A stretch of DNA of 64,000 nt from Bacteroidia bacterium (GTDB lineage Bacteria; Bacteroidota; Bacteroidia; J057). The position numbers and the translations under genes are program-made. The DNA is taken from the NCBI GenBank assembly GCA_033391075.1, contig JAWPMV010000001.1:7130001-7194000 (forward strand), given 5' to 3'. The notes beneath the pieces were generated by a model that was not told the DNA's origin, did no database searches, and worked only from the letters and a program-made list of their open reading frames with translations. Shown one piece after another: positions 4,584-21,921 of this stretch; the stretch's first letter is position 1, and each line of letters starts with the position of its first letter.

Positions 4584-4673
4584 AATGATTGATTTTGAAG
4601 CAAAGAAAGGGGCTATATACGCTCCTGGCGTCCTATTTGGAGAAATGAGACCTTTTTGAGGGCCTTGGGTACA

Positions 4674-4704
4674 AAAGAAAAAGGGCTTGCCTTTCGACAA
4701 GCCC
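4674..4704 (-). terminator. Intrinsic terminator of the SPFH gene
   Basis: A 7-bp perfect stem (GGGCTTG, 8-nt loop, CAAGCCC at 4683-4704) is followed on the minus strand by a T-rich run. It sits 30 bp after the SPFH gene's stop codon. Confidence 0.75.
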
Positions 4705-4734
4705 AGCTTTCTATGTGTGAATCTAAACGCTATG

Positions 4735-5643
4735 CTATTCTGCTCCTGTATTGATTACAGGATTTGTGGCACTATCCGAACAAAGGACTACCATCAGATT
4801 GCTGACTATATTGGCTTTTTGAGCATTATTCAATTCTACCAATCCTTTTTTGTCCAGTTTCTCGATTGCCATCTCCACCATGCCTACTGATCCTTCAACG
4901 ATCTTCTTACGGGCAGCTATTATAGCCTGCGCTTGCTGACGCTGTAACATAACTGCAGCGATCTCGGGAGCATAAGACAAATTGGACAGACGTGCTTCCA
5001 GAACTTCGATACCGACCATTCTGAGTCTTTCCTTCAACTCTTCTTCCAAGGCCTTGTTTATTTCATCAAATCCCGAACGAAGCGTAATGGTATCTTCATT
5101 TTCTGTCAGGTCATCATAGGGATAACTATGAGCGATTTTTCTCAAAGCTGCTTCTGCCTGAATCTTCACAAAGTTCTGATAAGAAAGCTCCGTATTTTTT
5201 GAAGCCACTCCTGAAGCCGCATTTATAGTACTTGCTGCTTCAATATCAAAGATAGCTTTGTAGGTATCTACTACTTTCCAGACAACTACAGCGCTGATGA
5301 GGATAGGGTTTCCCAATTCATCATTTACCTTGATAATCTGTGATTCCAGGTTTCTCACCCTAAGAGATACTTTCTTTTTGGAATAAAAAGGGTTGACCCA
5401 GAAGAATCCATTGTTCTTTACGGTTCCTTTGTACTTACCAAAAAAGAGCAATACCCGCGTTTGATTAGGCTGGACAGTAAATAGTCCAATTAGCCAGATG
5501 AGACCAACAAAGCAGAGGAAAAATAAAAGCCCTGCTAAAGCCGGTGAGCCTTGAAAAATTAATAGTAAGGGTGAAAAAATTAAAGCAAGTGCGATAAATA
5601 AATGGAGGAATCCATTGTTTTTCAGATTGCGAATTTTTTCCAT
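4735..5643 (-). CDS. SPFH/Band 7 (stomatin-like) membrane protein
   Basis: A 302-residue protein with two hydrophobic segments near the N-terminus (about residues 11-30 and 36-57) followed by an SPFH domain (about residues 58-240). Typical stretches are VQPNQTRVLLFFGKYKGTV, NPFYSKKKVSLRVRNLESQ and the late EARLSNLSYAPEIAAVMLQRQQAQAIIAARKKIV, which leads into a helical oligomerisation region. SPFH proteins form ring-shaped scaffolds in the membrane; this one resembles the stomatin/prohibitin group. No NfeD-type partner protease is adjacent. It is monocistronic, with its own terminator. Confidence 0.88.
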   Translation of the reverse strand: MEKIRNLKNNGFLHLFIALALIFSPLLLIFQGSPALAGLLFFLCFVGLIWLIGLFTVQPNQTRVLLFFGKYKGTVKNNGFFWVNPFYSKKKVSLRVRNLESQIIKVNDELGNPILISAVVVWKVVDTYKAIFDIEAASTINAASGVASKNTELSYQNFVKIQAEAALRKIAHSYPYDDLTENEDTITLRSGFDEINKALEEELKERLRMVGIEVLEARLSNLSYAPEIAAVMLQRQQAQAIIAARKKIVEGSVGMVEMAIEKLDKKGLVELNNAQKANIVSNLMVVLCSDSATNPVINTGAE

Positions 5644-5864
5644 GGTACGAGTGATTAAGTGTATGTTTCAGGATAAAGATAGTTTAGTATGTTGAATAGT
5701 TGGAATTCTAAGAAAAAATCTTTTCAAAACTGCCAATCACGCTTATTAAGTAGGAAGTACACAGCTCTTCGCAAAATCCGAACGGATAAAAATTTTGCCT
5801 ATTTTTTCCTCTTCAGCCTTCCTAACTTGTAGGTAACATTAACCAAAACTTCTATCATTCAACT

Positions 5865-6668
5865 ATGAAAAGACTCATCATCACAGTCTTCGCGCTAGCG
5901 TTGGCTTCCTCCCTCTTCGCACAAAATTCCAAAACCAAACTCTTCGGTATGCCGCTTAAACGCACGGGAATCTCCCTGGGTATAGAGTGGGATAAGGTCC
6001 AGAATTTCAGTGCTGTGAGTTTTGAAAGAATGGCGGGTCTACCCAGTCTTTCAGAAGATTTGGGCCTGGATACAGATCAGGCCGACATTTACAGCGGATA
6101 TTGTGAAAATCCGCATTTGCGCCTTCAAGCTGCCTGGATGACAGCAAATCCTAAAGTAGAACTCCATACTTCTTTATTAGTCGTTGCCAATCGTTATGAT
6201 GGGCTGACCTTTTATGGAGAAAGTTTGAGTCGCTATGACAATTACCTCACCATGAATTCCTGGGGAAATGAAATTGCTCTGGATGTAGCCCTGGTAAGAA
6301 GATTGGAAGCAGGACCTTTTGCCCTTCATGTAGGAGTTGGTGGAAATACCGGATATAGTTTCCTCAATACCATCGATATCACCGGAAGCCTCCAGGCAGA
6401 GTCCAGCATTTCTTCTTTAAAATCGTCCGGAATCGGCAGATTGAATGAATCGGATTATGGCGATTTTCACATTTATGATGTGGAAGTAGGAGATGGCATC
6501 TCTCAAAGACTTTATGGTCAACTCGGATGGTCCGTTACCATTGCGAAAAGAGTTGAGATTGGCATGGAAGGCCGTTGGGGCTATGGCTACCGCTGGCACT
6601 TCGATGGATCACCCGTCAGCACCAACCTGAGATCACTAGGCGGAATTGCGCGTTGGGTACTGAAATAA
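5865..6668 (+). CDS. Secreted beta-rich protein, probable outer-membrane barrel
   Basis: A 267-residue protein with a signal peptide (residues 1-19, ending in LFAQ). I recognise no specific family. The mature sequence alternates hydrophobic and polar residues in short strands: GISLGIEWD, HTSLLVVANRYDG, FALHVGVGGNTGYSF, RLYGQLGWSVTIA and VEIGMEGRWGYGYRW. This, with the C-terminal hydrophobic strand, suggests an outer-membrane beta-barrel. It is transcribed away from the SPFH gene across a 221-bp divergent gap and ends in a strong terminator. Confidence 0.6.
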   Translation: MKRLIITVFALALASSLFAQNSKTKLFGMPLKRTGISLGIEWDKVQNFSAVSFERMAGLPSLSEDLGLDTDQADIYSGYCENPHLRLQAAWMTANPKVELHTSLLVVANRYDGLTFYGESLSRYDNYLTMNSWGNEIALDVALVRRLEAGPFALHVGVGGNTGYSFLNTIDITGSLQAESSISSLKSSGIGRLNESDYGDFHIYDVEVGDGISQRLYGQLGWSVTIAKRVEIGMEGRWGYGYRWHFDGSPVSTNLRSLGGIARWVLK

Positions 6669-6690
6669 ACAGACGTGACGCTAATAGGAT

Positions 6691-6735
6691 GAGCCCGGAT
6701 CGAGCTATACGCTCGGTTTTGGGCTTTTTTGTTTT
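6691..6735 (+). terminator. Intrinsic terminator with nested hairpin
   Basis: AGCCC at 6692-6696 pairs with GGGCT at 6721-6725, enclosing a second hairpin (CGAGC/GCTCG, 6701-6714), and is followed by a run of T. It ends the beta-barrel candidate gene 23 bp upstream. Confidence 0.8.
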
Positions 6736-6740
6736 AGAAA

Positions 6741-6824
6741 GTGCTAGGGTGTTGTAGTGTTATAGTGCGGTTGTTGATCATTTCTTAAACTTTAACACTA
6801 CAACACTCTTGAACTACAACACTT
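6741..6824. repeat. Octamer-repeat palindrome, copy A
   Basis: The left arm (6741-6772) is four degenerate 8-bp units of the type GTGTTGTA. The right arm (about 6785-6824) carries the complementary units (CAACACTA type). A perfect 14-bp inverted repeat pairs 6749-6762 with 6793-6806. It lies directly after a terminator. Three more elements built the same way occur at 36534, 57451 and 60482. Confidence 0.8.
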
Positions 6825-7481
6825 CTCTTTCATTTAGATTTCCCCTCCCATTCCCACTTATCTATGTCGAAAAGAAAGATTCATTTGCACGAATAATAAT
6901 AGTTCCTGAACGAATACTTTCTTTTTGGCAACCAATTTGCATTTGTACTATAAAATGAGGCTTGATGTTTATACATTTATTATGTAAAGTCCGAGAAAGA
7001 CTACGTCAGTTTTTCTGTGACTACCCGAAGATCAAATTTTTGAACCTCTTAACACCCTTTATTATGGACCGATTGTTTTTGAAACAAGTACGTGCAGAAG
7101 GAATATGGAGCAGACGGAATTGTTCAGAAATTTACTCTCTTTGAATTCAGCCCACCTTAATGCATTGTCAGCGAGGCGGATAAACAGAGATGAATAAAAG
7201 AGAGTAATTCCAAGAACCTCTCCGTTCATCTTTCGCCAGAAATCTACAGGAGTAGATAAGCTGAAATGAAAGAATCAACATATTGACAATGACCAGAAAC
7301 AGTTTCTGGGGAATTCTTTGCCAAAAAGACGGGGATATGCATTGTTCAGAATCCCGAAGACTGGCCTGAGAAAAAATATTCCCTATATTGAAATATGTTT
7401 CTGCTTTTGCAGTATTCTGCCTTTGATTTTAGACTCCTACAGTCTCCACATGTACTTGTTCCTCCGATAAGAAGCTGGCCC
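6825..7481. other. Long intergenic stretch without a convincing gene
   Basis: About 650 bp between copy A of the octamer palindrome and the EAD-like gene. Short frames here (for example 6962-7144) have no recognisable composition. A small perfect hairpin (CCAGAAA/TTTCTGG, 7293-7309) and AT-rich promoter-like sequence around 6930-6955 are visible. An untranslated leader or a small RNA is possible, but nothing is supported beyond that. Confidence 0.4.
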
Positions 7482-8603
7482 ATGGTGCAGCCCAATCAGG
7501 AGTTTGTCAATAATTTTGGCATCATCCGGGAATCTTATAAAAGTGTGCTTTCTCCGCACTTGCTCCCGGAGGATAATGTATACGTAGATTGTCGAAACAG
7601 CCTCAAATTTTCAGATCTCGATCTGGAGGATGATCCTGTTCGCATAAGCGTAAAGATGAGACGCATGGTATTTGACGGTAGGGGAGGCGTGAAGTTTTTT
7701 GTCGGCATGGTCTTGCATATGCCGGAGGACATTCCCTTTCCGGAATTGGAGGATGCTCTTCAGTTTGCTTTGCATAAGAAAGTGAGAATTTCTTCTCCCA
7801 GTCAAACAGAAAAAGAAGTGAACCTGGCCAATCTTTCTCCTTCTTTCAAAAATCTATACCTACACTCGAGTAGTATTGGAAATGAAGCGTCGGCTGAAGG
7901 ATACCTGGTCCGGCAGCAAGCTCCTTTATTACTGCTGGATTTATCTTTGAGGGAATTTGAGCATTTTAAGCTAAAGGAGAAATATCAGGAGCATCGCTTT
8001 CCTCCGGACCTTCAGCTTTATTATTGTCGAAACCAAATTGCTCAAAAGGCTTTCCACAGTTTCCTGAGCCTTAATTTGGATAAACATGCCTTGAACCGCT
8101 TGAATAAATACTACCTCTCCCAACTCAATGGCGAGATAGAAAACTTTCGGAGCCTTCAGTATTTCACGAAACAGGGAATCGCATTTTCCGAACGAGCTAA
8201 ATTTGAGCTTGATAAGACCTATAGCCGCCTATTTGGCCAACTGCAACCTGAGCAATGGCAAGGAGTCTCCGCAATGTATCAGGCACTCTTTCCCCAACAA
8301 ATAGAAGCGCTGAAAAATGACTATAAACTTCTAGCTGACTTTGTCGATAAGCAGGCAGAAGTCCAGATTAAAAAACAGCTGAAAGAGATATTGATTGGAG
8401 GAGATTTTGACGCGAGTTTTAAACTGGCGGATTCACATAAAGAGCTTTTTGACGAAAGGGGTCAAGGTAATTTGGCGATCCTGGAAGCGAGATATCGCAG
8501 AATAGAAAAGGAATTTTTGGAGGGGGTTGTCGAGAATGAAGATAGATGGATCGAGAAAAACCGCATATCCAGTGCCCTGTTGAATCTTTTCCGAAACATT
8601 TGA
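7482..8603 (+). CDS. Orphan protein with C-terminal EAD11-like domain
   Basis: A 373-residue cytoplasmic protein with no signal peptide or membrane segment. The start at 7482 is preferred over the earlier ATG at 7395, whose extra 29 residues look non-coding. Residues 1-285 match nothing I recognise; they hold a beta-rich first third and a helical second part. Residues 290-373 look like effector-associated domain 11: a GGDFDASFKLAD helix, then N-x-x-x-LEARYRRIE, a small loop, and EKNRISSALLNLF. In the family the conserved pattern is N...RY..L...G.I....NRI..ALL.LI. EADs are adaptor domains of NTP-dependent conflict systems, usually paired with STAND NTPases, peptidases or other effectors. No partner with a matching EAD is adjacent, so the N-terminal part may be a new effector or sensor. 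Confidence 0.65.
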   Translation: MVQPNQEFVNNFGIIRESYKSVLSPHLLPEDNVYVDCRNSLKFSDLDLEDDPVRISVKMRRMVFDGRGGVKFFVGMVLHMPEDIPFPELEDALQFALHKKVRISSPSQTEKEVNLANLSPSFKNLYLHSSSIGNEASAEGYLVRQQAPLLLLDLSLREFEHFKLKEKYQEHRFPPDLQLYYCRNQIAQKAFHSFLSLNLDKHALNRLNKYYLSQLNGEIENFRSLQYFTKQGIAFSERAKFELDKTYSRLFGQLQPEQWQGVSAMYQALFPQQIEALKNDYKLLADFVDKQAEVQIKKQLKEILIGGDFDASFKLADSHKELFDERGQGNLAILEARYRRIEKEFLEGVVENEDRWIEKNRISSALLNLFRNI

Positions 8604-8665
8604 GTAAATTATTGAAAAGGAGCGACTGCTTCTTTCAATGCCAAAACCTACATAACCTAAGCACT

Positions 8666-10123
8666 ATGAAGAAGCTGCTGCTATCTTTTATTCTCATTTT
8701 ACTTATTTTTTCTCTCTCTGCACAAGAAGGCAAAGACATCAATATTGGTAAATCTTATGTATTAAAGTCTGAAATCCTGAAAGAGGATCGGCCATTCTCT
8801 GTGTATTTGCCTGCGGGCTATTCGCCTACAGGAAATCCTACACCTGTTATGTACCTCCTGGATGGAGATTACCATTTTCATCATACAACGGGAGTTGTTC
8901 ATTTTCTCTCAACGCAGGGACGTATGCCGGAGATGATCGTAGTTGCTATCCCTAATACTACAGATCGTACTCGTGATCTAACGCCTGAGATTCTGAAGGA
9001 TGAGCAAGCCAAAAAGAATTTCCCCACAGGTGGCCAAGCCAATAAGATGCTGAGCTTCATCAAAGATGAGCTCATTCCCCATATAGCCAAGCAATACAAT
9101 ACGAGCCCTTATACCATGTTGATCGGACACTCTTTTGGAGGAATTTTCGCCGTAAATGCCTTCCTTGAAGAACCCGACCTTTTTGATTCCTATATCTCCA
9201 TTAGTCCCAGTATGTGGTGGGATAATCAGAGTTTGGTGGAGAAAGCTGAAAAGTTTTTGGATGAAAAGCCGGAGCTGAATACCTACTTCTACATGACAAT
9301 GGGAAATGAAGGAGGGACTATGTTGGGAGGAGCTATGAAGCTGGCGGCCTTATTTGAAGAGTATGAAGGCGAAGATTTCAATTGGGATTTCAAAGTGATG
9401 GAGGAAGAAACCCATGGTTCAGTTCCTCATAGGAGTACTTACTATGGATTGGAGAAGATTTTCAAGGAATGGTACAGCGCTGATGTGGTAGAGCTTTATC
9501 AGACAGGGGGAATGGAGGCTTTAGAAAAGCACTATGCTATGATTTCAGAAAAACTGGGATATAGCTGGAAGATAGATGAAGCCCGAATGAATACATTGGG
9601 TTATCAATTGATTGGCAAAGGCAAGCTTAGGGAAGCCAAAGAGGTTTTTGCCAGAAATATAAAGGAACACCCCAAATCTTTCAATACCTATGACAGCATG
9701 GCCGAAGCCTATATGGCCAATAAGGAGAATGATAAAGCCATTGAGTATTACAAAAAATCTCTGGCAATCAATCCTGGCAATGCCAATGGAGTTGCGATGC
9801 TGAAAAAGCTGGGTCTCGACTATGACCCTATGTCCATGAAACTGGATTTGTCTGCCAAGAAGCTGAAGAAATATGAAGGTAAATACAAAACGCCTATGGG
9901 AGTTGTTGAGGTGAGTGTCGTTGATGATAAGCTCATGGCTAAAGTCAAAGGCGGATTTCCTCAAACAGAAATGATTCCTTTTCCGGATGAAGTATTCCTC
10001 GTCAAATCCTTAAACTCTGTGGTTCAGTTTGAGGTGAATGATAAAGACGAAGTTAATAGCTTTACCGCCCAGCAAGGCATCGGACAGATGATGAAAGGAG
10101 TGAGATTGGAAGGAGCGGAATAA
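8666..10123 (+). CDS. Secreted esterase with TPR and C-terminal beta domain
   Basis: A 485-residue protein. The start at 8666 gives a signal peptide (MKKLLLSFILILLIFSLSAQ). Residues about 25-275 form an esterase D/Fes-type alpha/beta hydrolase: MYLLDGDYHF strand, the nucleophile elbow GHSFGG, an ISPSMWWDN segment and a late ETHGSVPHRS carrying the probable catalytic His. TPR-like helices follow (AKEVFARNIKEHPKSFNTYD and KAIEYYKKSLAINPGN). A C-terminal DUF3471-like beta module starts LKKYEGKYKTPMG. Similar three-part proteins in Bacteroidota act on small esters or siderophore-like compounds; the substrate here is unknown. It starts about 60 bp after the EAD-like gene and may be read through with it. 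Confidence 0.85.
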   Translation: MKKLLLSFILILLIFSLSAQEGKDINIGKSYVLKSEILKEDRPFSVYLPAGYSPTGNPTPVMYLLDGDYHFHHTTGVVHFLSTQGRMPEMIVVAIPNTTDRTRDLTPEILKDEQAKKNFPTGGQANKMLSFIKDELIPHIAKQYNTSPYTMLIGHSFGGIFAVNAFLEEPDLFDSYISISPSMWWDNQSLVEKAEKFLDEKPELNTYFYMTMGNEGGTMLGGAMKLAALFEEYEGEDFNWDFKVMEEETHGSVPHRSTYYGLEKIFKEWYSADVVELYQTGGMEALEKHYAMISEKLGYSWKIDEARMNTLGYQLIGKGKLREAKEVFARNIKEHPKSFNTYDSMAEAYMANKENDKAIEYYKKSLAINPGNANGVAMLKKLGLDYDPMSMKLDLSAKKLKKYEGKYKTPMGVVEVSVVDDKLMAKVKGGFPQTEMIPFPDEVFLVKSLNSVVQFEVNDKDEVNSFTAQQGIGQMMKGVRLEGAE

Positions 10124-10143
10124 AGAATTAATTGTATAATAAA

Positions 10144-10178
10144 AGCGGGTACAGCTGATCAGATGTACCTGCTTTTTT
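10144..10178 (+). terminator. Intrinsic terminator after the esterase gene
   Basis: AGCGGGTAC (10144-10152) pairs with GTACCTGCT (10165-10173), with one G-T position, and is followed by a T run. It overlaps the 3' end of the convergent pbpC gene. Confidence 0.78.
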
Positions 10179-12570
10179 ACTTTCCTTTCTCTACAATTTC
10201 GAATTCTTTTTCTAGTATTTCACCAAACTCATCAACGCAAACCAATTTATGCAATCCTAACTGCGGTGCCAGGGGCATTTTATGTTCGTCGCGTGTCTCC
10301 CCGAGGAATTCTCCATTTAGGTGCCAGAACACTCGTACAGAAGAAATCTTATGTGCGAGTTCAAAAATTGCATTGCTGCGTTTTCCATCTAAGCCATAGG
10401 GGATAAAGATTCTTGCATCGTGCCGAGGGTAGATCCAATCCATAGATGGATTCTGAGTGTTTGCATTACTTACTTCACAACCTTCTCTGAAAGGCGGTGG
10501 AGATTTGTAAGCCAAATTCCCTTGAACATAAAACCGTTCCATAGCTGGAGGTAACACAAAAAAGGGCGTGTGCTTGATCTCCGAAGGGGAAATACAAGAG
10601 CTATTTACCTGCCAGTTAAGGGAAGGATCCAGATGGAAATTTTTATGATAGGGACATGCAAGCGTTTTTAAACCTGATTTTTGTACCCAGGAGCTATCCC
10701 GGGATTCACAAATCGTGGAAGCCCGATATCCACTTTCTTTGCAGACGGGAATTTTTGCCATTTCGTCGAAAGGTTGGAAGAACCATTTATCAGAACGAGG
10801 AAGGGCATTGAAAATATCAAATAAAATGGGGGCAGCTGCATGCAAGCCAACCAGGCCAGGTCTTCCTTCACCGTCAGCATTTCCGGCCCAAACGGCTACT
10901 ACATAATCGGGAGTACAACCCACGGCCCAGGCATCTCTGAAGCCAAAGCTTGTACCCGTTTTCCAGGCAATATTTGCTCGGTGCGACAGCTGGTCTCGAA
11001 TCTGATCTTCATGGGGTCTCAAAACTTTTTTCATGGCTTCAAAGGTGTGCCAGATTGCTGAAGCGCTTAAGGGAGGATGCTTGACAAGTTTTTCTGAATG
11101 CTCAGAGGCCGGAATGGTGGTATAAGAATTTCCTTTCAAATAATTAGGTGGCCGATAAATCTCCGGGTCGTATCTACCGTTGTAATGGGGGTAGTTTTTG
11201 AGGGTTCGGGCCATTCCTCCGTACATTTTTGCCAGGTCCCAAAGGCTGGTTTCTGCTCCTCCTAAAATCAAGGTGAGTCCGTAATTTGCGGGAGCTCGAT
11301 CCAGGGTACTCATGCCGACTTCTTGGAGTTTATGGTGGAATTTAGCGATTCCGTAATCTCTGAGCATATGAACAGCTGGGACATTGAGAGACTGCGCTAA
11401 CGATTGATCGGCCTGCACGGCGCCTAAAAAGCTTCGGGTAAAGTTTAGGGGGCGGTATCCATTAAAATTGGTAGGGATATCAGGAATAAGGGTTTTGGGG
11501 AGAATTTCACCTTCGTGCAAGCGAGAGGCATACAACAATGGTTTCAGGATGCTACCGCTACTTCTTCGCGCCTGGATGATGTCTACAAACCTTCCGTCAT
11601 CTCCTTTTCCCTGAGGGTTCATGATGTTGCCCGCATAAGCTTTGATGTCTCCACTTTCTACTTCTATGATTAAAGCTGCTGCATTTCCTATGGCATTTTC
11701 CCGAAGAATTTTCCCATGGCGTTTTAGAACCTGGTTTACTTTAAGCTGCAATGGTTTGCTGAGAGTTGTATATACCTGGGCACTACTAGCATCCTTTTTT
11801 GAACTGTTATGGGTTTGAAGTAGATGAAGTGCGTCCTGAGCAATCGGAAATGTTTTTAAAGGAAGAGGTTCAAATACCGAAAAGGACCACGTAGTTGAAT
11901 CAATCTCTCCATTTATGTAAAGTTTTCTTAAAAGGGTATTCCTTTTTTTCAATAATTCTTCTCGATTACGATTGGGGTTCACCAATGCGGGACTATTTGG
12001 GAGTACTGCCAGCATGGCTGATTCTGCCCAACTTAATTTGGAAGGTTCTATTCCAAAATACCGCCAGGCAGCCGTTTCTAATCCAACTACATTTCCTCCA
12101 AAAGGGGCATAGGTACTATAATACCTAAGTATCTCCTTTTTGCTATACCTCAATTCAAGGCGTATAGCTTTTAGTAATTCCAAGATTTTTTCGCCATAGG
12201 TTCTTTCTTGCCCTTTTCGAGAAAGTCGGATTAGCTGCATGCTAAGTGTGCTAGCCCCGCTAATAATTTTCCCTTCGCGAATATTCTGATAAATTGCTCT
12301 TCCCAGTGCTAGTATATCGACCCCTATATGATGTTCAAAGCGTTTGTCTTCATACGTTTTAAGGCAAATGACAAATTTCTTTGGCACACGTTTAATTAAT
12401 GGAAATCGCCATTGCTCATCCTTGGCAATAGTTGCACTTAGCAGTTCTCCATTTTCATCATAGAGAACGGATGAATTAGGTTCAATAAAAATAGGTTCAG
12501 GAAGGCACTGGTAAAACCAAAGGTTAAATACCAATGACAAAACTATCAGTAGCTTCCATTTTAGGTGCAT
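10177..12570 (-). CDS. pbpC: Penicillin-binding protein 1C
   Basis: A 797-residue class A penicillin-binding protein. An N-terminal membrane anchor (about residues 5-22) is followed by a GT51 transglycosylase domain (about 40-215; catalytic Glu74 in YEDKRF, then GASTLSMQL near 105). Next comes a transpeptidase domain with SxxK at Ser340-Lys343, SLN at 394-396 and KTGTS at 537-541. The C-terminal BiPBP-type beta domain (about 700-797) has DWIYPRHDARIFIP and LNGEFLGETRD. It polymerises and cross-links peptidoglycan in the periplasm. All active-site motifs look intact. The alpha-2-macroglobulin gene 33 bp upstream on the same strand is its usual partner, as in the E. coli pbpC-yfhM pair. Confidence 0.93.
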   Translation of the reverse strand: MHLKWKLLIVLSLVFNLWFYQCLPEPIFIEPNSSVLYDENGELLSATIAKDEQWRFPLIKRVPKKFVICLKTYEDKRFEHHIGVDILALGRAIYQNIREGKIISGASTLSMQLIRLSRKGQERTYGEKILELLKAIRLELRYSKKEILRYYSTYAPFGGNVVGLETAAWRYFGIEPSKLSWAESAMLAVLPNSPALVNPNRNREELLKKRNTLLRKLYINGEIDSTTWSFSVFEPLPLKTFPIAQDALHLLQTHNSSKKDASSAQVYTTLSKPLQLKVNQVLKRHGKILRENAIGNAAALIIEVESGDIKAYAGNIMNPQGKGDDGRFVDIIQARRSSGSILKPLLYASRLHEGEILPKTLIPDIPTNFNGYRPLNFTRSFLGAVQADQSLAQSLNVPAVHMLRDYGIAKFHHKLQEVGMSTLDRAPANYGLTLILGGAETSLWDLAKMYGGMARTLKNYPHYNGRYDPEIYRPPNYLKGNSYTTIPASEHSEKLVKHPPLSASAIWHTFEAMKKVLRPHEDQIRDQLSHRANIAWKTGTSFGFRDAWAVGCTPDYVVAVWAGNADGEGRPGLVGLHAAAPILFDIFNALPRSDKWFFQPFDEMAKIPVCKESGYRASTICESRDSSWVQKSGLKTLACPYHKNFHLDPSLNWQVNSSCISPSEIKHTPFFVLPPAMERFYVQGNLAYKSPPPFREGCEVSNANTQNPSMDWIYPRHDARIFIPYGLDGKRSNAIFELAHKISSVRVFWHLNGEFLGETRDEHKMPLAPQLGLHKLVCVDEFGEILEKEFEIVEKGK

Positions 12571-12603
12571 TCTATCAATCTATATTTTAAGCGAGCAAGT
12601 AAA

Positions 12604-15600
12604 TTATTTGGTAATTGAAATTCTTCTTCTTTTACCTCTAATATACATTGAGCTATTGTACTTGGCCTTTAATTCAATTGGAGGAAACTCAAATTCTCCA
12701 ATGTATCCTGAATTTAATTGGACATAAAAGATTTTTTGAAAATCTGCTTCTTTACCCAGGTTGAAAAAAGTGCTTACCATTTGATCCTTAACTAATTGAT
12801 GAGTTGGAATACTTCCTGGATTGCATTCCGTTGAAATGATTTGAAAACCAGCAGGAAAATTTTGAATCAGGATAAGGTTATCTATGTCTTTCTGATTTCT
12901 ACTTCTGACTTTTACCTCTACGATTACATCGGTTCCCTGATCGAAAAAATTGCCCTGGACTTTTTTCCATGTATTTCGGTTAGAATTACACTGCCCCTCA
13001 TAATAGCTAACTTCCATGTTTAATTCTGATGAGCTCACCGAATCTATGCTTTCCTCCAGATTAATCTGTGGGGAGATCGCTTTAGATCCTTTGTTCTTGA
13101 GTTCTAGGGTTTGAATTTTTTGGTTGCCAAGTAAGCGATAAAAATTACCACTTTTAGTACTAATATTTATCCAGGGACCTGCATTTAGGCGATAATCAAA
13201 CTCCAATGGATTTAAGAAAGATTCAAGGGAATTATAATTCAGGATCGCGATCATGCTCATTGCCATTTCATGACTATTTAATTCATCTTTGCTCAACAGC
13301 TTATCTTGTAGAATTTGTAGAAGGGAATCTGCTGGTAAATTATTTCTAATAATGCCCATACTAAATAGCATCAGCGCTTTATCACGGATTTCAGATCCCA
13401 TGTTTGTTTCCCAGAAATCCATTATACTAATTCTAGCTGAAGAGAAATCACTAATAATACCCTCAGCCTGTTGAGGGCGGCCAATCTCATGGTATGCTGC
13501 TGCTAATAACCAATCAGCAAGTGGATGCTCAGAATCCCCAAAATTCAATTGATTCATGGATCTGACTGGTGCCTCTTTTGCAAGAGCTAACAAATACAAG
13601 CGGTAGGCCTGCATCAAACGGTCGTTTTGATCCCAACTATATGCCTTTCCTTTTTGAAAGGAAATCCACCTTTGAAAGAAAAAAGGATCTACTTTATATC
13701 CTGCCTTTTCAGCCTCCAGCATAAAGTGTCCGGCATAATTCGTCAACCAATCATAATTCTGATATGAATTTTTCCAATAACTAACGGCCCCATTTTCTAA
13801 TTGATATTCTTGAATCTTTGCAATGCTTGAGTTAATTGCGTTTACATAAGATTTTTGTACCTCTTTATCAATCGAAGGATTAGCAGCTAAATAAATTAGA
13901 GGAAAACTTTTTGAAACAATGATCTCAGCATTTGTTTCTGGAGAATTCTTTAATTGAGATAGTCTTCTGTTCCAACCCCGTAAGATAGGGGGATTAACTT
14001 CAAGGTATAGATTACTGTTTATGGATTCTTTTGCCCAGGGAATTGTAGCCTTCCAGCTTTCTCCAGGGCTAATGGAAGGCGGATTAATTATTTTACTCTG
14101 AACTCTGTTTGGAGAAACAACATTTAAGGCAGTCTCATAACTATCTTTGTTTGAACCGGACCTGACGTTAATTTTTATTCCAGCTGACCCTGTTTTGTTC
14201 TTTGTTTTTAAGTTAAAGAATATGGTTTCTGTGCCTGATTCTGAAAATGAAACAAGCTGATTCATTTTTCCATTTGACTCAAATAAACCTGTTGGCTTAA
14301 GAAATACTTCCACATCTTTGATTCCATCAACATTGGCAAATACCGTAACGGGGACACTTATTTCCTCATTTGGTCCCATATTGCTCGGTAATTCGCCTAA
14401 GACCATCAATGGCAAAGATAATCTGCTGATTTGCTCATCGGATCCATAGGCTTTTCCACTACGGGCGATAAGCATGGTTTTCAAGGTACCTTTTGAGTTC
14501 CCAATAGGAATTTTATGGATTCTCTTATTATTTTTTCCCGCTTCTAAAAAGAATGGCCCCTTAAATATTACTACAGGTTTAAATCGGTCTATATCAGCAT
14601 CCGGTGGTTTCTCTCCCATATCACCTCCTCCAATACTTACTACATTATTTACCGGAGAATTTAAACTGAGGTATTTGTACATATCGAAACTTCGAACCTT
14701 TAAGGCTTCTTTCTGGTAGAATGTTTCATAAGGATCAGGGGTTTCAAATTCAGAAATGTCCAACAAACCTTTATCTACTATAGCGAGTGTATAAGTCATG
14801 GCTTTTCCAGACCTTTCACTCACTTGAATTGATGCCACTTGATTAGGGCGAAGTTGATTGGGCATACTTATTTCCGGCTCCAGAATAGTATTAGGGTCTT
14901 CTACCTGAATGGGAATAATTCCATAAAGCCGAATAGGACGGTCATTTTTTGTCTCTTTATGTCCTTGAATCAAGGTCACATGAGCATATACATTGGGGGA
15001 CATACTTAAATCTGTCTGAATTCTTGTAGTATTCAATCCAGCATGGGTCTTTTCCCAGAATGAATGTAAAACATTATTTCCTGATTCAAGGCTAATCAGT
15101 GCACGTCCATTTTCTGTACCTTCAAAATTGAGTTCAATTTCTTCCCCAAGTTGATATTTGGTTTTCGAAGAAAAAACGTTCAGGACTAGTTCTTCGTTTT
15201 CGAGATCAAGCCTTCCTTCATTATCTATTGATGACAATAAAAGCCTGCTTGTATGATTGCTTGATGGATTGCTTACAATTAATTCAAAATAACCTTTTTC
15301 ACGAATAATAAAGTTCCAACTGGCTCTACCCTTGGCATCCGTTATTAGTTTCTGGCTTAATGATTTATAAGGTTTCGAATTGTGGGCACTGTTGAAATTA
15401 TTACTACTTCCTTTATAAGCTGTAGAAGTCTGATCATGCCATATGTTTGGGGCGATGCTATTAATATTGACTTCAACTTCTCTGTTTTTTACTCGTCGCC
15501 CTTTTGAATCAACCACAACAATATTTGCCATATATTCCATCCACCCGTTTAGGTGGGCTCTTTGGTCTTCCATAACCAGCGTTTTGGGCGGACCTGTCGG

Positions 15601-18243
15601 AGAAAGGTAGACCCCAACATATTCCGAATGCTGATATACCTTTCGGGTATATCTTCTAAAACTATATCGTCCTCCAGGTTCAAATACCCTGACCTTGTAA
15701 ATCTCTGAAAGAATACCTGGCCACTTTCGGGCTTCTGGTTCTGATTTTGAAAAGTTTTCTTCAGGTATCCCCGCGTCCAGGATCCCTTGATCATTGGTAT
15801 GATTCTCAGCCTGTACGGTAGAGAAATATTCTCTGTATTCGCCAAATCTGACATCTTCAAACGAATAATCCGGGAAGGATTCAAAGGAAGTAACCAGCCT
15901 TTTTATGGTTACTTCCGTTCGGGATTTTAAGTTTTTTGCGGCGGCTCCCCCATTTAACCAACTAATTCTTAAGGGTTCTTTGAAGGGATCACCCTTAAAT
16001 TCTAACCGACTAGGGTAGAAGGTCTCAACTTTCAATAATTTATCGAAAACAGTTCCTCCTACTCTTATTCTGAACAAATACTTTCCGGGAACTGCATTTG
16101 GACTGGTATACGGGTGGAAAGCGTACACCCCATTTTTCCCTTGATAGGTTTGAGTCTCACTTATCAACAGCTTAGTATGAGGATCATGAAATTGCATGAT
16201 CACGGGATGCCCTTTTGGTAAGACTTTCTCTTCATCCTCTAAGATGAAACTTATATGCATAGTGTCACCTGGGCGCCATAAGCCTCTTTCTCCGTATATG
16301 TATCCTTTTAGCCCCCGATGGTATGTATTACCTCCTATCTTGAATTCAGTTAATTCAAGGGCATTGGCATTGTCGAGTTTCAGATAACCTCTTTGTTTGT
16401 CTTTTTTTGCTATCAGTAGAAAAGGCTTATTAGGAATGAGGTTGGGTTTTTTCGGGAAATTGACCACCGCTTTCCCTTCTGCATTTGTTATTCCGTTAGC
16501 AATAAATTGCTGTGTATAGTCATAAAGTTCTATTTCAACTCCCTTTACAGGTTCTGTGGTATTTAAATCTGTTACGAAATAGTGCCCTTCATCTTCCCCT
16601 TGTTTGGCAATAATTCCCAGGTCAGAAGCTAAAAAAAGGTAGCTCCTAGAGGGTTTTCGACTGGTGTAGTACAATTCATAGCAGGGTTCACTTCTTTGGA
16701 TTGTCCTCGGTGAGAATAAAATATCATTAAACGAGTCATCATCTTTCCAAACGGTATCTTCAGCGGAAGTATACCTATGTTTATACCAAATTGAGGGAAG
16801 TTTTAGCATATCTGCATGCTTCCCGTTTTCCTCAATCACTTCATTACATTGTCCTACATAATGTTCACGGCGATATCCTAAGGTGATCTCATATATTGCT
16901 CCTGGGTCAAGATTGACATAGGCTGAAAGATCCAGGGTGAATGGTTGTAATTTTGTGAAGTCCCGACTTGCATAATCTGTTAGAGCAACTGTTTTTCTTA
17001 ATGCAAGTTTACCAACACGCAGGAGATCTTCATCGTAACGATAAGTGCTGTATTTTGATTCTATACTAACCAGTTCTTGGGTTTGAAGAAACTGGGGAAT
17101 ATTGTTTTCAAATATTTTTATAATCCTAATATCAATTGCCTTCAGATTTCGAGCTTGAAATCTGATAGGGATTAAGTTGCCGGAGCTCGGAATAATCGAA
17201 TGATGTGGATCACCCAACAATACTACTTCAGGCTCTTTGGATCCGAATGCGAGGGTTTTTGTAAATACTTTTTTTAATGGTGCACCGGATATAGTTTTAA
17301 TTCCAGGCCTTACCAATAATTTAAAATCGCCATCCAGGTGTTTAGATGGATAGACATGTATACGATTACCCTCTATTCGTGTAGTGGCTTCAACATCAGC
17401 CAATTCAATTAAACCTTTTAAGTCCTGATCGAGATCAAGTAGGTCAGAAAATTCAACAGTCAGGTATTGGTCAGGTGCAAAAAAGCTATGTACTTTATGA
17501 ACAACAAATTTGTCCTTTGAGGGAATTAGAAAATTCTGGCTACCTTCCGTGTCTACGCCCACTTTATTTCCATCCCAGCTTATGGAAAGCTCTTGATCCA
17601 AGTCTCCTCGTTTTACTTTCTCTATACTAAAATGATGGGTTTTAAGATCTTTCTGGTGATTCCAATTTATATTCAATTCATCCCCCTTAGCGGTTTCAGC
17701 TTGAAGGACGAATTTCACCATAGTTGTGTCAGATTGCTCAGACAAACTAATAACTCCTTCAAGTATTTGCCACTTTTCTCTTCCCTGCTGGCTAGCCTTT
17801 AGGGCTTTGAATCTTATATCCATTCGTTTAGGTCCGGTCCAAAAACCAAACTTAAAGTATTCGGGGGCCTGGGCGATGAGATTACTTACCTTTAATTTTC
17901 CCTTGTAGAATTGAGCTTCATTTAATGGGGTAGATGGCTCAAAAGCAATGGTTCGTTTATCTATCCAGAACGCTTTTCCCTTTATTTTTGGATCAAAATG
18001 AAAGAGTTTTTCATTGATATCCTTTCCTAATTCTTCGGAACTAACCATATCCTCAAGGAATCTCACCTTTAAGATAGAATTAGATGAAAGTTCTCCTGCA
18101 GTATATGCGCTTAAGTATGTATCAAATGCAGGATCATAATTCATGTATTCTTCTAAATCGCTGTCCCTATTTAGAATAAGAAATACGGAAAGAAATAGGA
18201 GGGCAATAAGGCCCACAGTTAATTTTTTGGTAGTAGTATTCAT
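12604..18243 (-). CDS. Alpha-2-macroglobulin family protein, thioester lost
   Basis: An about 1,879-residue bacterial alpha-2-macroglobulin. The start at 18243 puts the membrane anchor (KKLTVGLIALLFLSVFLIL) near the N-terminus; an ATG 18 bp earlier is also possible. A string of macroglobulin-like beta domains follows. It includes an MG2-type region (RGLKGYIYGERGLWRPGDTMHI, which is diagnostic), a bait-like region, the A2M domain (FKGPFFLEAGKNNKRIHKIPIG) and a helical thioester-type domain. Where the CLEQ thioester normally stands (YPYGCLEQ), this protein reads SPETNAEI with Asn encoded at 13930-13932, so the covalent trap is missing. The family traps proteases in the periplasm and works beside PBP1C in envelope defence. 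The trap here would have to be steric. Confidence 0.9.
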   Translation of the reverse strand: MNTTTKKLTVGLIALLFLSVFLILNRDSDLEEYMNYDPAFDTYLSAYTAGELSSNSILKVRFLEDMVSSEELGKDINEKLFHFDPKIKGKAFWIDKRTIAFEPSTPLNEAQFYKGKLKVSNLIAQAPEYFKFGFWTGPKRMDIRFKALKASQQGREKWQILEGVISLSEQSDTTMVKFVLQAETAKGDELNINWNHQKDLKTHHFSIEKVKRGDLDQELSISWDGNKVGVDTEGSQNFLIPSKDKFVVHKVHSFFAPDQYLTVEFSDLLDLDQDLKGLIELADVEATTRIEGNRIHVYPSKHLDGDFKLLVRPGIKTISGAPLKKVFTKTLAFGSKEPEVVLLGDPHHSIIPSSGNLIPIRFQARNLKAIDIRIIKIFENNIPQFLQTQELVSIESKYSTYRYDEDLLRVGKLALRKTVALTDYASRDFTKLQPFTLDLSAYVNLDPGAIYEITLGYRREHYVGQCNEVIEENGKHADMLKLPSIWYKHRYTSAEDTVWKDDDSFNDILFSPRTIQRSEPCYELYYTSRKPSRSYLFLASDLGIIAKQGEDEGHYFVTDLNTTEPVKGVEIELYDYTQQFIANGITNAEGKAVVNFPKKPNLIPNKPFLLIAKKDKQRGYLKLDNANALELTEFKIGGNTYHRGLKGYIYGERGLWRPGDTMHISFILEDEEKVLPKGHPVIMQFHDPHTKLLISETQTYQGKNGVYAFHPYTSPNAVPGKYLFRIRVGGTVFDKLLKVETFYPSRLEFKGDPFKEPLRISWLNGGAAAKNLKSRTEVTIKRLVTSFESFPDYSFEDVRFGEYREYFSTVQAENHTNDQGILDAGIPEENFSKSEPEARKWPGILSEIYKVRVFEPGGRYSFRRYTRKVYQHSEYVGVYLSPTGPPKTLVMEDQRAHLNGWMEYMANIVVVDSKGRRVKNREVEVNINSIAPNIWHDQTSTAYKGSSNNFNSAHNSKPYKSLSQKLITDAKGRASWNFIIREKGYFELIVSNPSSNHTSRLLLSSIDNEGRLDLENEELVLNVFSSKTKYQLGEEIELNFEGTENGRALISLESGNNVLHSFWEKTHAGLNTTRIQTDLSMSPNVYAHVTLIQGHKETKNDRPIRLYGIIPIQVEDPNTILEPEISMPNQLRPNQVASIQVSERSGKAMTYTLAIVDKGLLDISEFETPDPYETFYQKEALKVRSFDMYKYLSLNSPVNNVVSIGGGDMGEKPPDADIDRFKPVVIFKGPFFLEAGKNNKRIHKIPIGNSKGTLKTMLIARSGKAYGSDEQISRLSLPLMVLGELPSNMGPNEEISVPVTVFANVDGIKDVEVFLKPTGLFESNGKMNQLVSFSESGTETIFFNLKTKNKTGSAGIKINVRSGSNKDSYETALNVVSPNRVQSKIINPPSISPGESWKATIPWAKESINSNLYLEVNPPILRGWNRRLSQLKNSPETNAEIIVSKSFPLIYLAANPSIDKEVQKSYVNAINSSIAKIQEYQLENGAVSYWKNSYQNYDWLTNYAGHFMLEAEKAGYKVDPFFFQRWISFQKGKAYSWDQNDRLMQAYRLYLLALAKEAPVRSMNQLNFGDSEHPLADWLLAAAYHEIGRPQQAEGIISDFSSARISIMDFWETNMGSEIRDKALMLFSMGIIRNNLPADSLLQILQDKLLSKDELNSHEMAMSMIAILNYNSLESFLNPLEFDYRLNAGPWINISTKSGNFYRLLGNQKIQTLELKNKGSKAISPQINLEESIDSVSSSELNMEVSYYEGQCNSNRNTWKKVQGNFFDQGTDVIVEVKVRSRNQKDIDNLILIQNFPAGFQIISTECNPGSIPTHQLVKDQMVSTFFNLGKEADFQKIFYVQLNSGYIGEFEFPPIELKAKYNSSMYIRGKRRRISITK

Positions 18244-18428
18244 AACAGGTAAGTCTTCCATTAGATAAAATACCTATTAATATGGGAAACTCATAAATTC
18301 CGATTTGATAAAAGGATTTAATTATTCGGAATGATTTTTTTTCTATATTATTAATCTTGAGCTACTATTTCCTATATAAGTAGGCTTTTAGTTAAACAAG
18401 GTGATTCAATCATCTACATATATCTGTC

Positions 18429-20117
18429 ATGAAATATGAGCTGATACATGATACCGTAGCCAGCCAGGTATTTGTGAAGGCTTCTATAGAAGCGAGGACT
18501 CGACGCAAAGTGGAAAAATTAATCCATGATCGTTTTGAGGCCCATCAACTCCGTGGGGTAAAGCTTAGCCAGGATGATGTCGATGAAATAGGTAAATATC
18601 TTGAAGTTGTAAATATTAGTCAGGAAGAAAGAGATTTTGTAGATGAAAGTAAAAGATCTCTGGAAAGAGCCAAATTGCGTTTGCGCTTAGTTATAGGAAT
18701 TGTAATAGTTGTATTGCTTTCCATTTCAGGTGTTGCATTAACTCAATGGCAAATTGCCGAAGATAAGACCGAAAACCTGACGGAAGCTCAAGAAGAAATT
18801 AAACGACAGAATATTGAAATAACAGAAAAAGCCGAAAACCTGAATTCGATAAATATAGAAATAACAGAAAAAAATGAATATGTAGATTCAATAAACGCTA
18901 AGCTAGAAATTTCATTAAATGAAGCAAATACCCTTAAGTTACTAGCAGATCAGAAGACTCGGGAGGCAGAATCAAGACTCAAGGACCTTAATCTGGCAAA
19001 CCGTAATAGAATTAAAGACCTGGTAAATCGCTTGCCCGATGCCTTAAATGCAAGAAATTTTGACGTGGCTACCTTGATAGCTTCTGATGTCTATGAAATA
19101 AAAATTGATAAGCAAGATGTGCTTTCAGAACTGCAAGAAGTAGCAGAAGTCATATATTTCTTGAAAGAGGCAGAGAAGTATACCAAAGCAGTTGAAGTTG
19201 TTATGAAAACTTCACACAATTATGATTTTTCTCCCCCTAGGCCTGCATTTAAGGATACGTTGAATTGGTTGGAGATGGCCCTAAATCAATTAATATCGAA
19301 GGCTGATAACTCAGAATTGGAGAACAAATATTATCCTAAGATGATTCCAATCAAAGGAGCGCGGTTTCGCATGGGGCCGGGAGGAGGGAGAACAAGAGAT
19401 GCGAAAACGATTGAAGTTGAGGTTTCTGATTTAGAAATTGCAGATACAGAATTAACAGTATTTCAATACTTGTTTTATTGTTTCGCTACAAATACTGATC
19501 CTCCGGAAGGTCCAGGATTCAATAATTGGGAACATGATTATCCTGTTGCCTACATTAGTTTATTAGATGCTGCGCGATATTGTAATTGGCTAAGCGCTAG
19601 AAAAGGGCTGAGCTCTTATTATATGATTGAAGATGATGATGATCAAGGATTTAGTATAAAAATATCAGCAGCCAAAGAAGGGTATAGATTACCCTCTGAG
19701 GCTGAATGGGTATTAGCTGCTAGTTATGGTAATAGTAGGAATATTGATACTGGAGTAAGAGATTATAAATACGCTGGATTATTTCCATACAAGAAGAAAA
19801 AATTATCTGATTATGCATGGTTTGAGCAAAACAACGTACAAAAGGTCAGGACTAAAGGTTATATTTCTTACCGGAAAAGAATCTATGACATGAATGGAAA
19901 TGTTGCTGAATGGTGTTGGAGTAGATTCGGACCTTTGAAAGAGTATAATCAAAAGGTCTCAGAAGTAAATTCAGAAACAGAGGTTGTGGTAAAAGGAGGA
20001 AGTTGGGCAAATGATTCGAGAAGATTAGAAATAAGCAATAGATCTACTCATTTCCCCAACTACAAAGACGACAAAATCGGCTTCCGTGTAGTGAGAAGTG
20101 TTCCTGAAAGCAAATAA
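18429..20117 (+). CDS. nSTAND-tail/transmembrane/FGE-fold protein, NTPase part missing
   Basis: A 562-residue protein. Residues 1-80 (YELIHDTVASQV, then charged helices) resemble the C-terminal winged-helix end of nSTAND NTPases, where YE(I/L)xHD(T/S)LA is a hallmark. The NTPase that should precede it is absent: an in-frame TGA sits 21 bp upstream of the ATG. One membrane helix (87-106), a coiled coil (108-190) with an internal IEITEK repeat and a helical linker lead to an FGE-sulfatase fold (303-557). That fold shows YRLPSEAEW, MNGNVAEW and VVKGGSW. The two catalytic cysteines of true FGE enzymes are replaced (Asn528, Leu533), so it is more likely a binding domain than an oxidase. It is convergent with DUF4230 genes. 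It may be a domesticated or decayed conflict-system component. Confidence 0.75.
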   Translation: MKYELIHDTVASQVFVKASIEARTRRKVEKLIHDRFEAHQLRGVKLSQDDVDEIGKYLEVVNISQEERDFVDESKRSLERAKLRLRLVIGIVIVVLLSISGVALTQWQIAEDKTENLTEAQEEIKRQNIEITEKAENLNSINIEITEKNEYVDSINAKLEISLNEANTLKLLADQKTREAESRLKDLNLANRNRIKDLVNRLPDALNARNFDVATLIASDVYEIKIDKQDVLSELQEVAEVIYFLKEAEKYTKAVEVVMKTSHNYDFSPPRPAFKDTLNWLEMALNQLISKADNSELENKYYPKMIPIKGARFRMGPGGGRTRDAKTIEVEVSDLEIADTELTVFQYLFYCFATNTDPPEGPGFNNWEHDYPVAYISLLDAARYCNWLSARKGLSSYYMIEDDDDQGFSIKISAAKEGYRLPSEAEWVLAASYGNSRNIDTGVRDYKYAGLFPYKKKKLSDYAWFEQNNVQKVRTKGYISYRKRIYDMNGNVAEWCWSRFGPLKEYNQKVSEVNSETEVVVKGGSWANDSRRLEISNRSTHFPNYKDDKIGFRVVRSVPESK

Positions 20118-20129
20118 AGTCAAGAGGCT

Positions 20130-21287
20130 CTACTCCAACCTAATATAATGCTGAAACTTATCGAGCATTTTAAAATCCAGTTTAGGAGAGGCTTTCAATT
20201 CAGCGAGCAGTCCATCAAAATCTTTGCTGTGTACAATTTCTACACCGTTTATTCCTTTCTTGTTTTTGGGATCTAGCATCTGCATTAAGCCATATATACT
20301 TTCTTCTGCGGAAGATTTAGCCGTTTCGAAAATGTCTTTTTTCAAAGCTTCTTCAATGAGTTCTATCCTTGCAGTTTTTTTAGTTCGACTAATTAGTTTA
20401 ATAGGAACCTGATTTTTGGCTTTTTTCTCATCCATAGAAAGATTGGGATTTTGGACTTTATCCTTGATCGATACTTGCAAGAGTTCAAAACCTGGAACTC
20501 CATTTGTATACGGACCTTGGGGCGGAATAAACCAGGGATTGATATCGGCAGCTAGAATATATGGGTCAAGGCCAGTAATTTGCACGATACCATTAGAGTC
20601 AGGTTTGAACTCTTCATTTCCTATGGTTTTTAAGTTATATCCAGCTTTTATCCATCCTCTGCAGAGATAATGTATGTCAATTCTATCTAGAATTTCTGAC
20701 GCATATTTATCTTTTTCATTAGCTAGTATTGTTTTCCTATTCCCGTTTTCAATAAAAGTTGCCCAGTCTAGATTTGGATTCATCAACTCTTTAAAGAAGT
20801 TAATTTCTTCTTCTCTTTTTGCTTTTTTTAGCCTGGGGTTTTTACTGGCTATTCTCAACAGATGCACATAGGTGATCCTTTCCCGCTCTTCCGAATATTC
20901 CTCAAAATATGTATAAACCTCCTGCCATACTTTGGCCCTTTCTCTCACTTTTAAATCTTGCCTGTTTCCAAACAATTCTTTTCTGTGAATCTGAAAGAAG
21001 AATGGAATCTTTTCTCTGAATGCATTAAAGCTACTCTCAAACGCCTCATCACTATTAGTTTCAAAACCTTCTCGTAATGAATGAATAATTTCACCATAGA
21101 ACTCTGCACTCATCAATTCTCCAATATCCTTTACTTCTTCTATAGTAAGTGCAGAAGTTCCCAAGCTAAAAGTGGTCTTTACGATGAGTCCTAATCTATT
21201 GAGGAAAAATACCAGGATGATTAGACCGACTAATATTCCGCCAAGTATTCGAATTGGACTGCTAAAAAATCCTAAAATCTTTTTCAT
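20130..21287 (-). CDS. DUF4230-type membrane-anchored protein
   Basis: A 385-residue protein. The start at 21287 lies 4 bp after the upstream gene's stop; a longer frame would overlap that gene. One N-terminal membrane helix (IRILGGILVGLIILVFFLN) is followed by a segment starting ALTIEEVKDIGELMSAEFYGE, typical of DUF4230 proteins. A long helical insert and a second half with QITGLDPYILAADINPWFIPPQG follow. The protein family has no known activity; members often flank each other in Bacteroidota. It ends 12 bp from the convergent nSTAND-tail gene. Confidence 0.6.
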   Translation of the reverse strand: MKKILGFFSSPIRILGGILVGLIILVFFLNRLGLIVKTTFSLGTSALTIEEVKDIGELMSAEFYGEIIHSLREGFETNSDEAFESSFNAFREKIPFFFQIHRKELFGNRQDLKVRERAKVWQEVYTYFEEYSEERERITYVHLLRIASKNPRLKKAKREEEINFFKELMNPNLDWATFIENGNRKTILANEKDKYASEILDRIDIHYLCRGWIKAGYNLKTIGNEEFKPDSNGIVQITGLDPYILAADINPWFIPPQGPYTNGVPGFELLQVSIKDKVQNPNLSMDEKKAKNQVPIKLISRTKKTARIELIEEALKKDIFETAKSSAEESIYGLMQMLDPKNKKGINGVEIVHSKDFDGLLAELKASPKLDFKMLDKFQHYIRLE

Positions 21288-21291
21288 GGTT

Positions 21292-21921
21292 CTAATTATT
21301 AGTAGGATTAAGGTCACCTAAAGACTTCCTCAATACGTTTAAGCTCTCTTGAAAATATTTTGCCTGATCTAGTGAGATGGGTTCAAATTCAAGGATAACT
21401 TCTTTGAACCCCATATTTTTGAATAAGGTGCTTAAAAATAGTCGGGTTTTTTCTTGCCCATTTTCTTCGATATCTACAAAATGTAAATCTCTTCGTATTT
21501 CGACTTCAGCAAGTCGAGAAAACGTCTCGATATCTTCGATCTTGAGCTTCCCCTCTGTTAGAACTGTATCTACCTGAAATTTATCAGGAGGGTAAGAGAA
21601 ATTGAGAATTTCTACGGGGGGAAGTTGAACACGAATAGATTCTCCATTTACTTCTACATCCTGGGGCTTCAGTTTATTTAGATCTATACCTATTTTGACC
21701 CGTGCCTCGGTTTGAGCGATAAAATGGGCATCACTCAATTTGATAAAGGCAATTTTCTTTTCCTTAAGACCAAATATATATTTACTGAGGACATATTCTA
21801 CGGTAGCCAGCTTAGCGGATGCCTGGACCTTACTCACGATCAATCCTCGCGGATCGGAAGGCCCGCAGCCAAGTAGTATCCCTGCCAATGTCAGGCAGAA
21901 AAGGGCGTTTCTTATCTTCAT
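21292..21921 (-). CDS. DUF4230 lipoprotein
   Basis: A 209-residue lipoprotein: the lipobox LLGC places the lipidated Cys at residue 19. The mature part shows the DUF4230 pattern: KLATVEYVLSKYIFG, then ARVKIGIDLNKLKPQDVEVN and the Pro-rich strand VQLPPVEILNFSYP. It ends in an amphipathic helical region. It precedes the larger DUF4230 gene by 4 bp, so the two proteins are almost certainly made together and probably sit in the same envelope compartment. Function is unknown. Confidence 0.75.
   Translation of the reverse strand: MKIRNALFCLTLAGILLGCGPSDPRGLIVSKVQASAKLATVEYVLSKYIFGLKEKKIAFIKLSDAHFIAQTEARVKIGIDLNKLKPQDVEVNGESIRVQLPPVEILNFSYPPDKFQVDTVLTEGKLKIEDIETFSRLAEVEIRRDLHFVDIEENGQEKTRLFLSTLFKNMGFKEVILEFEPISLDQAKYFQESLNVLRKSLGDLNPTNN

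Follow-up and report, generated by a model that had tools for sequence, protein, structure and literature searches.

STAND/NLR switches are usually viewed as single chains in which sensor and motor are covalently joined. The closest described relatives of the locus considered here are the STAND-FGS (FGE) conflict systems, in which, according to those parts of the accounts that deal with them, nSTAND1 or another STAND NTPase carries a C-terminal FGE/CLec domain predicted to sense invaders, and which are enriched in multicellular bacteria (PMC8195603; PMC10907252). A precedent for divided components is offered by the iSTAND2/TERNS3 ternary systems, whose C-terminal part (vWA-L together with effectors) is given, in the portion devoted to them, as a separate adjacent gene (PMC8195603). 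The window analysed here, a stretch of 64,000 nucleotides (C1:7130001-7194000) from the 9.49 Mb, five-contig genome of a Bacteroidia bacterium, contains an ATG-initiated gene (18429-20117, plus strand) whose 562-aa product was recognised by open reading frame (ORF) analysis and family search as an orphan receptor subunit composed of a tail domain, a transmembrane (TM) helix, a coiled coil and an FGE domain. With a probability of about 60%, the product of this gene is a transmembrane receptor subunit that stands alone, belongs to a split CHAT-nSTAND1 machine and works in trans in the manner proposed below. Positions are those of the window unless a locus (L) or contig designation precedes them.

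Anatomy of the tail and the break in the winged helix

Residues 1-80 (18429-18668) make up a putative cytosolic tail domain that is homologous to nSTAND1 proteins at their C-terminal end. When residues 1-138 alone were used as a query, matches in the same genome were obtained at C1:6351810 (E=1.8e-37), 2708227 (5e-20), 2017613 (7e-20) and 3018933 (2.6e-13), and also to a fused nSTAND1 protein at C1:8132555 (L056 4508-6040; E=6e-9), while residues 1-302 retrieved fused nSTAND1 proteins from genomes G010 (5.9e-13) and G056 (9.2e-10). Pfam returned no significant match for the N-terminus of the protein and no NTPase match at E<=1. Judged from these alignments, the N-terminus is an nSTAND1 tail, the match being far beyond chance. 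The first-pass annotation, made from the sequence alone, had proposed as much, and a profile check of residues 1-80, which matched nSTAND1 tails, bears it out.

The protein opens with MKYELIHD (18429-18452), the second wing strand of the nSTAND1 winged helix, whose residues E4, H7 and D8 are invariant across 13 aligned split and fused tail proteins. It carries the winged-helix end E-[LIF]-x-H-D-x-[LIV]-[AG] and the subsequent helices by which assignment to PF20703 was judged; the pattern scan was based on a closer alignment, a more diverse one being unsuitable. In a fused protein of L106, the PF20703 model itself extends into the tail segment (residues 8-416, profile 1-375). As in other split tails, an own start codon near the ELxHDxxA strand is followed by a TM helix (~83-131 in the family) and then by a variable C-terminal domain.

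The winged helix of STAND proteins helps to keep the closed, ADP-bound state. When nine fused and ten split NTPases are aligned, all of the split ones end at the same position, where the tail of the window protein begins. Their C-termini read RIFKEVN, RIIKEVS, LLRRFAEE or similar, directly followed by the stop codon, whereas the fused relatives run on as ILRKSQNGWELAHDSLA. Fused paralogues of the same genome read ILRKSQNGWELAHDSLAGQIY across the site; in the split pairs the NTPase stops after RIFKEVN and the next gene starts with MKVELAHDSLALKIY. An AlphaFold2 model of the fused L056 paralogue (510 aa, mean predicted local distance difference test score 85.5) places the cut in the loop that joins wing strands 349-351 and 355-358, so that the gene boundary, as modelled, lies inside the wing beta-hairpin of the winged helix. 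The earlier proposal that the protein starts in the middle of a module, without the NTPase, therefore holds. The accompanying claim of an upstream in-frame stop is correct as to its presence (TGA, 18402-18404), the distance to the ATG being 24 bp and not 21; the frame is closed, and read-through from an NTPase is impossible.

That the break is not peculiar to the window gene can be seen from four operons of the same genome (L052, L053, L054, L057), in each of which a ~600-aa protein of the CHAT type and an nSTAND1 NTPase of only ~355 aa are encoded together with a tail as a gene of its own. The four short NTPase genes lie at C1:6357172-6358227 (L052), L053 2559-3614, L054 5310-6386 and L057 3247-4308. 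The order of the genes varies, being tail-CHAT-NTPase in L052, L085, L100 and L101 and CHAT-NTPase-tail in L053, L054, L057, L086, L105, L106, L108 and L128, and in L100, L101 and L106 a single NTPase is accompanied by two tails. Given this variation and the NTPases with two tails, the tail has to function as a protein in its own right. The NTPase and tail genes overlap or almost touch in L053 (TGATG), L054, L086, L108 and L128, and such stop/start overlaps might be taken to mean that the split is only apparent, the two halves being fused by a frameshift. A frameshift, however, can make neither tail-first operons nor orphans, and gaps of ~55 bp separate some of the pairs (L105, L106). As a general mechanism it is refuted by gene order, and its probability is considered negligible.

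The full-length paralogues envisaged by the first-pass annotation are present in the genome (L056 4508-6040; L058 914-5731; L060 3564-7001, the last with the order CHAT-nSTAND-tail-TM-FGE). Besides the window gene, one other tail gene of the genome is an orphan (L055 4196-5545), and both are of the FGE type. A further orphan, L127 1459-3855 of an uncultured Lewinella, codes for a tail, a TM helix, a coiled coil and a leucine-rich repeat (LRR) domain and thereby resembles the receptor half of an NLR; its 7.3-kb contig encodes neither NTPase nor CHAT, and no partner of either kind was found near L055. Farther out on both sides of L127 lie opposite-strand genes, with a small same-strand frame, read by eye, between the orphan and the upstream one.

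When 84,980 species genomes were scanned, relatives turned up in Lewinella cohaerens, an uncultured Lewinella, several Saprospiraceae and other Bacteroidetes metagenome-assembled genomes (MAGs), as well as in one MAG labelled Gemmatimonadaceae. In the latter (L104 2733-7631) the tail gene is located behind an nSTAND-like NTPase gene, which may reflect either transfer or mis-binning. In a sample of the phylum, the tail profile matched only four of 395 genomes, indicating that this lineage is where the family is mostly found. Among nine genomes searched for all tails, most of the unclear ones being inspected, separate tail genes were detected in eight, the exception being G010 with fused tails only. 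As a gene type, the short form is conserved across species, NTPase-less tails starting at the same site, and the split is, on the strength of these gene layouts, a standing two-gene architecture and not the outcome of decay.

Some loci display additional peculiarities. Tandem nSTAND1 NTPases occur in L133 (4546-8888), L135 (3654-7941) and L056 (4508-8958); L133 and L135 are variants with a different break point, the second NTPase being itself broken over two genes between profile positions ~245 and ~259. Repeated paralogous secreted proteins with a common LGGED/LGGQD stretch are encoded beside tail genes and the CHAT-NTPase pair in L102 (7689-15423) and L100 (4628-5920, 7609-8913).

Membrane helix, sensor domains and topology

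The predicted TM helix (residues 87-105; 18687-18743) comprises 19 residues with a mean hydropathy of 2.78 and has a basic N side, seven K/R being counted in the preceding 20 residues and two after it. The coiled-coil stem (residues 106-207; 18744-19049) follows directly, and structure prediction merges stem and TM helix into one long helix at residues 65-207. A helical spacer (residues 211-301; 19059-19331) then leads to an FGE/C-type-lectin-fold domain (residues 303-556; 19335-20096), a predicted ligand binder that matches PF03781 over the complete domain (E=2.9e-32, profile 3-255 of 255). Its C-terminal FGE motif GGSW...GFR (residues 523-553; 19995-20087) lacks the cysteines of the catalytic FGE. 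A catalytic FGE was ruled out, as no Cys is found in GGSWANDSRRLEISNRSTHFPNYKDDKIGFR of the window domain, two being found in the control from the same genome (L001). The full-length PF03781 match, the TM helix and the long helix agree with the earlier statement that the membrane-anchored coiled coil and the FGE domain are intact, which argued against recent decay.

The same spacer and FGE are found in other contexts. They align (E=3e-32) to L060 3564-7001 (G000:C1:6661563-6665000), a single-chain protein of 1145 aa from the same genome with the order CHAT-nSTAND1-winged helix-TM-FGE. In L130 (4930-7955) the same spacer and FGE make up a signal-peptide protein in its own right (6654-7955; E=1e-33 to the window protein), whose gene comes after a fused NTPase-tail-TM gene. 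Fused NTPase-tail-TM genes followed by a signal-peptide sensor of the LRR type (L129 4913-9813, L077 1-3021) or of the WD40 type (L132 4432-7895) are encountered as well. With signal peptides judged by eye, a second recurrent break point is recognised in these gene arrangements, between the fused NTPase-tail-TM gene and the gene for the signal-peptide sensor.

The domains behind the TM helix of split tails include FGE (window gene, L055), WD40 (many), LRR (L127), OmpA (L057) and caspase (L085). The last of these (L085 6442-8031; Peptidase_C14, E=1.2e-11) suggests either an extracytoplasmic caspase or an effector-carrying tail. A positive-inside pattern is seen at the TM helix in nearly all tails. 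Because of this pattern, the signal-peptide sensor proteins and the OmpA domain behind the TM helix of L057, the sensor is probably, and with good support, extracytoplasmic and the tail cytosolic. The single-chain CHAT-nSTAND-tail-WD40 protein L058 914-5731 contains many near-identical WD repeats (WDVSGKELAAMEHES...), which suggests that they have expanded recently.

Since the orphans possess the same docking part as the cis tails, an engine-less tail would compete for the NTPase. Orphan tails might hence be inhibitors or decoys, which would occupy the winged helix of the short NTPase without triggering it and set the threshold for the cis receptors; the existence of orphans with differing sensor ends is compatible with such a role. 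A pure decoy, however, would need neither the stem nor a complete FGE domain, both of which are kept, and the sensor ends of the orphans are of the same kind as those of single-chain proteins such as L060. A decoy function is considered unlikely, even if it heads the alternatives.

Proposed role of the orphan receptor

The short NTPases retain Walker A (GASGTGKTS, pattern GxSGxGKTS) and Walker B (IFDQFEEL, DQFEE) motifs, and the His-Cys dyad of CHAT (HYxGH, NGC) is intact in all six aligned partners; the CHAT partners submitted to Pfam scored above the cut-off. CHAT has a caspase-like protease fold, as described, in the part concerned, for Craspase (PMC9729208). PADLOC models gave only a weak Avs4 match (5.6e-07) to the NTPase, and the matches in a fold search included Avs4 as well as the NLR resistosome of plants.

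Neither an NTPase nor CHAT is encoded near the window gene. None of the nSTAND1 places of the genome falls inside C1:7130001-7194000, and NTPase and CHAT partner profiles built for this work produced zero matches to the ORFs of the window. The gene is flanked by a divergent neighbour (12604-18261, minus strand), identified from sequence and without a family search as alpha-2-macroglobulin-like, and by a convergent one of 395 aa (20130-21317, minus strand), both outside the system. It is monocistronic, since both flanking genes are unrelated and lie on the opposite strand. No Bacteroidota-type promoter box (TAnnTTTG) was found upstream. A second copy of the FGE DNA was not found in the genome (E<=0.01), reverse transcriptase not having been searched for; the lack of such a copy argues against the template repeat of a diversity-generating retroelement (DGR). 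A phage-borne origin was rejected, no relative being found in viral contigs.

As no NTPase or CHAT stands beside the gene, action in trans is most likely. In the mechanism that we propose, residues ~1-80 would remain cytosolic and supply the second wing strand and the subsequent helices to a short nSTAND1 NTPase encoded by another gene. One helix would cross the inner membrane, and the coiled-coil stem would reach outward, where the non-catalytic, lectin-like FGE domain would sample an extracytoplasmic ligand. The ligand signal would travel along the stem and the TM helix and reach the NTPase through the docked wing strand; the NTPase would then open, assemble and activate the CHAT protease of the neighbouring gene, with cell death or dormancy as the probable outcome. 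The best guess for an engine is the operon at C1:6355292-6358227 (L052), because its WD40-type tail is the closest relative of the window tail (57% identity over 112 columns; nearest by both tree and distance). In the tree the window tail falls within a supported set of 12 tails, mostly from tail-first and Lewinella operons. The surroundings of the L052 operon (2316-15227; G000:C1:6345316-6358227) constitute a dense cluster with caspase-nSTAND1 (1451 aa), caspase (690 aa), tail-WD40 (1158 aa), CHAT and short nSTAND1 genes; caspase genes adjoin several loci, L100 among them.

Because the closest paralogue's cluster encodes a caspase-nSTAND1 and a second caspase (L052 2316-8749), one may ask whether the gene is a membrane-anchored FGE lectin co-opted to dock another winged-helix or STAND protein, for instance the caspase-nSTAND1 of the same genome, CHAT being uninvolved; in L104, too, the tail comes after an nSTAND-like NTPase gene. 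Such a co-option seems rather improbable, as the pair of CHAT and short NTPase is found in every split operon with complete flanks.

Several observations weigh against a receptor subunit acting in trans. Each of the four split NTPases of the genome is already accompanied by a cis tail, which would make the orphan one more receptor for an engine that has its own; a distance-profile test singled out no partner (L057 0.81, L052 0.78). The correlation between the distance matrices of NTPases and tails (r=0.62, 21 pairs, 0/5000 permutations), which speaks for the model, is partly owing to shared species history. In the AlphaFold2 model of the lone window tail, residues 3-42 form one helix, the first ten with low confidence, and the strand does not appear; the model fits a strand formed only upon docking, without proving that docking occurs. 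PADLOC models had zero matches to the window protein and the CHAT proteins, and the caspase behind the TM helix of L085 implies, from its domain assignment, that C-terminal domains are not all plainly sensors. Finally, no orthologue of the tail-FGE gene was detected in 60 relatives searched, same-genus genomes not being among them.

The last of these results, together with the lack of a cis partner and with neighbours that, in an empty-site comparison, were found not to be kept in the tail family, would also be expected of a remnant, i.e. a receptor half left after NTPase loss and either kept by chance or decaying. Against this stand the 562-aa open frame, the full-length FGE match and the presence of all tail hallmarks, as well as a start codon placed as in the cis tails and the recurrence of orphans. 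Recent decay leaving an NTPase remnant upstream was ruled out, the divergent gene beginning after a gap of 167 bp that holds none. A remnant is therefore unlikely, and ranks second among the alternatives. As for the “captured” receptor half of a conflict system suggested by the first-pass annotation, the receptor half was essentially right, whereas “captured” is better replaced by an exchangeable subunit, the NTPase half being a gene of its own; the role in conflict is one that we infer.

A broader generalisation can be put forward only tentatively, its odds being somewhat below even: in Saprospiria-type bacteria one STAND-CHAT engine might serve several exchangeable TM receptors, both cis-encoded and orphan, through complementation of the winged-helix strand, sense outside the cytoplasm and acquire new specificities via receptor genes alone. 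If true, this would be a bacterial NLR-like switch with extracytoplasmic sensing that can be extended by receptor-gene gain alone. With a conserved break inside the winged helix and a separate, membrane-anchored receptor half, sensing and switching become mixable. Separate halves can be expressed, swapped and titrated, so that the communication between a STAND sensor and its NTPase becomes directly testable. The orphans also suggest that NTPase-keyed searches for STAND defence systems miss receptors of this kind.

Comparison with known systems

A search of the open-licence literature yielded no account of orphan tails, nor of a STAND protein that is divided in its winged helix and has membrane-anchored receptor subunits. 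The split machine resembles the STAND-FGS systems in joining nSTAND1 with an FGE/CLec sensor, whereas the latter, as far as the relevant portions of the accounts describe them, are one chain, are proposed to sense mostly inside the cell and are often DGR-diversified (PMC8195603; PMC10907252). In the machine described here, the break falls within the winged helix and a membrane helix precedes the sensor; the window gene, moreover, is an orphan whose FGE DNA has no second genomic copy. The iSTAND2/TERNS3 systems are likewise a case of a conflict-system component split into a neighbouring gene, but consist of MoxR-vWA proteins broken outside the STAND winged helix, and orphans do not figure in the portion describing them (PMC8195603).

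In L060, L058 and L059 of the same genome, CHAT, nSTAND1, tail, TM helix and sensor form one chain, with the same modules in the same order and with FGE as the sensor in L060; of these modules, the window gene holds only the last ones (tail, TM helix, stem and sensor) as a separate gene. A STAND switch also operates in the bacterial NLR-like Avs, bNACHT and CARD-NLR defence proteins, where it couples the sensor at the C-terminus to a protease or nuclease, which is either N-terminal or a neighbour. To our knowledge these sensors are cytosolic, consist of a single chain and lack a membrane receptor half, and the resemblance of the NTPase to the Avs4 profile is weak. In the sensor-helper NLR networks of plants, several sensors may share one engine, each sensor retaining its own NTPase. 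By analogy, engine sharing may be common to both, while the receptors described here are without an NTPase.
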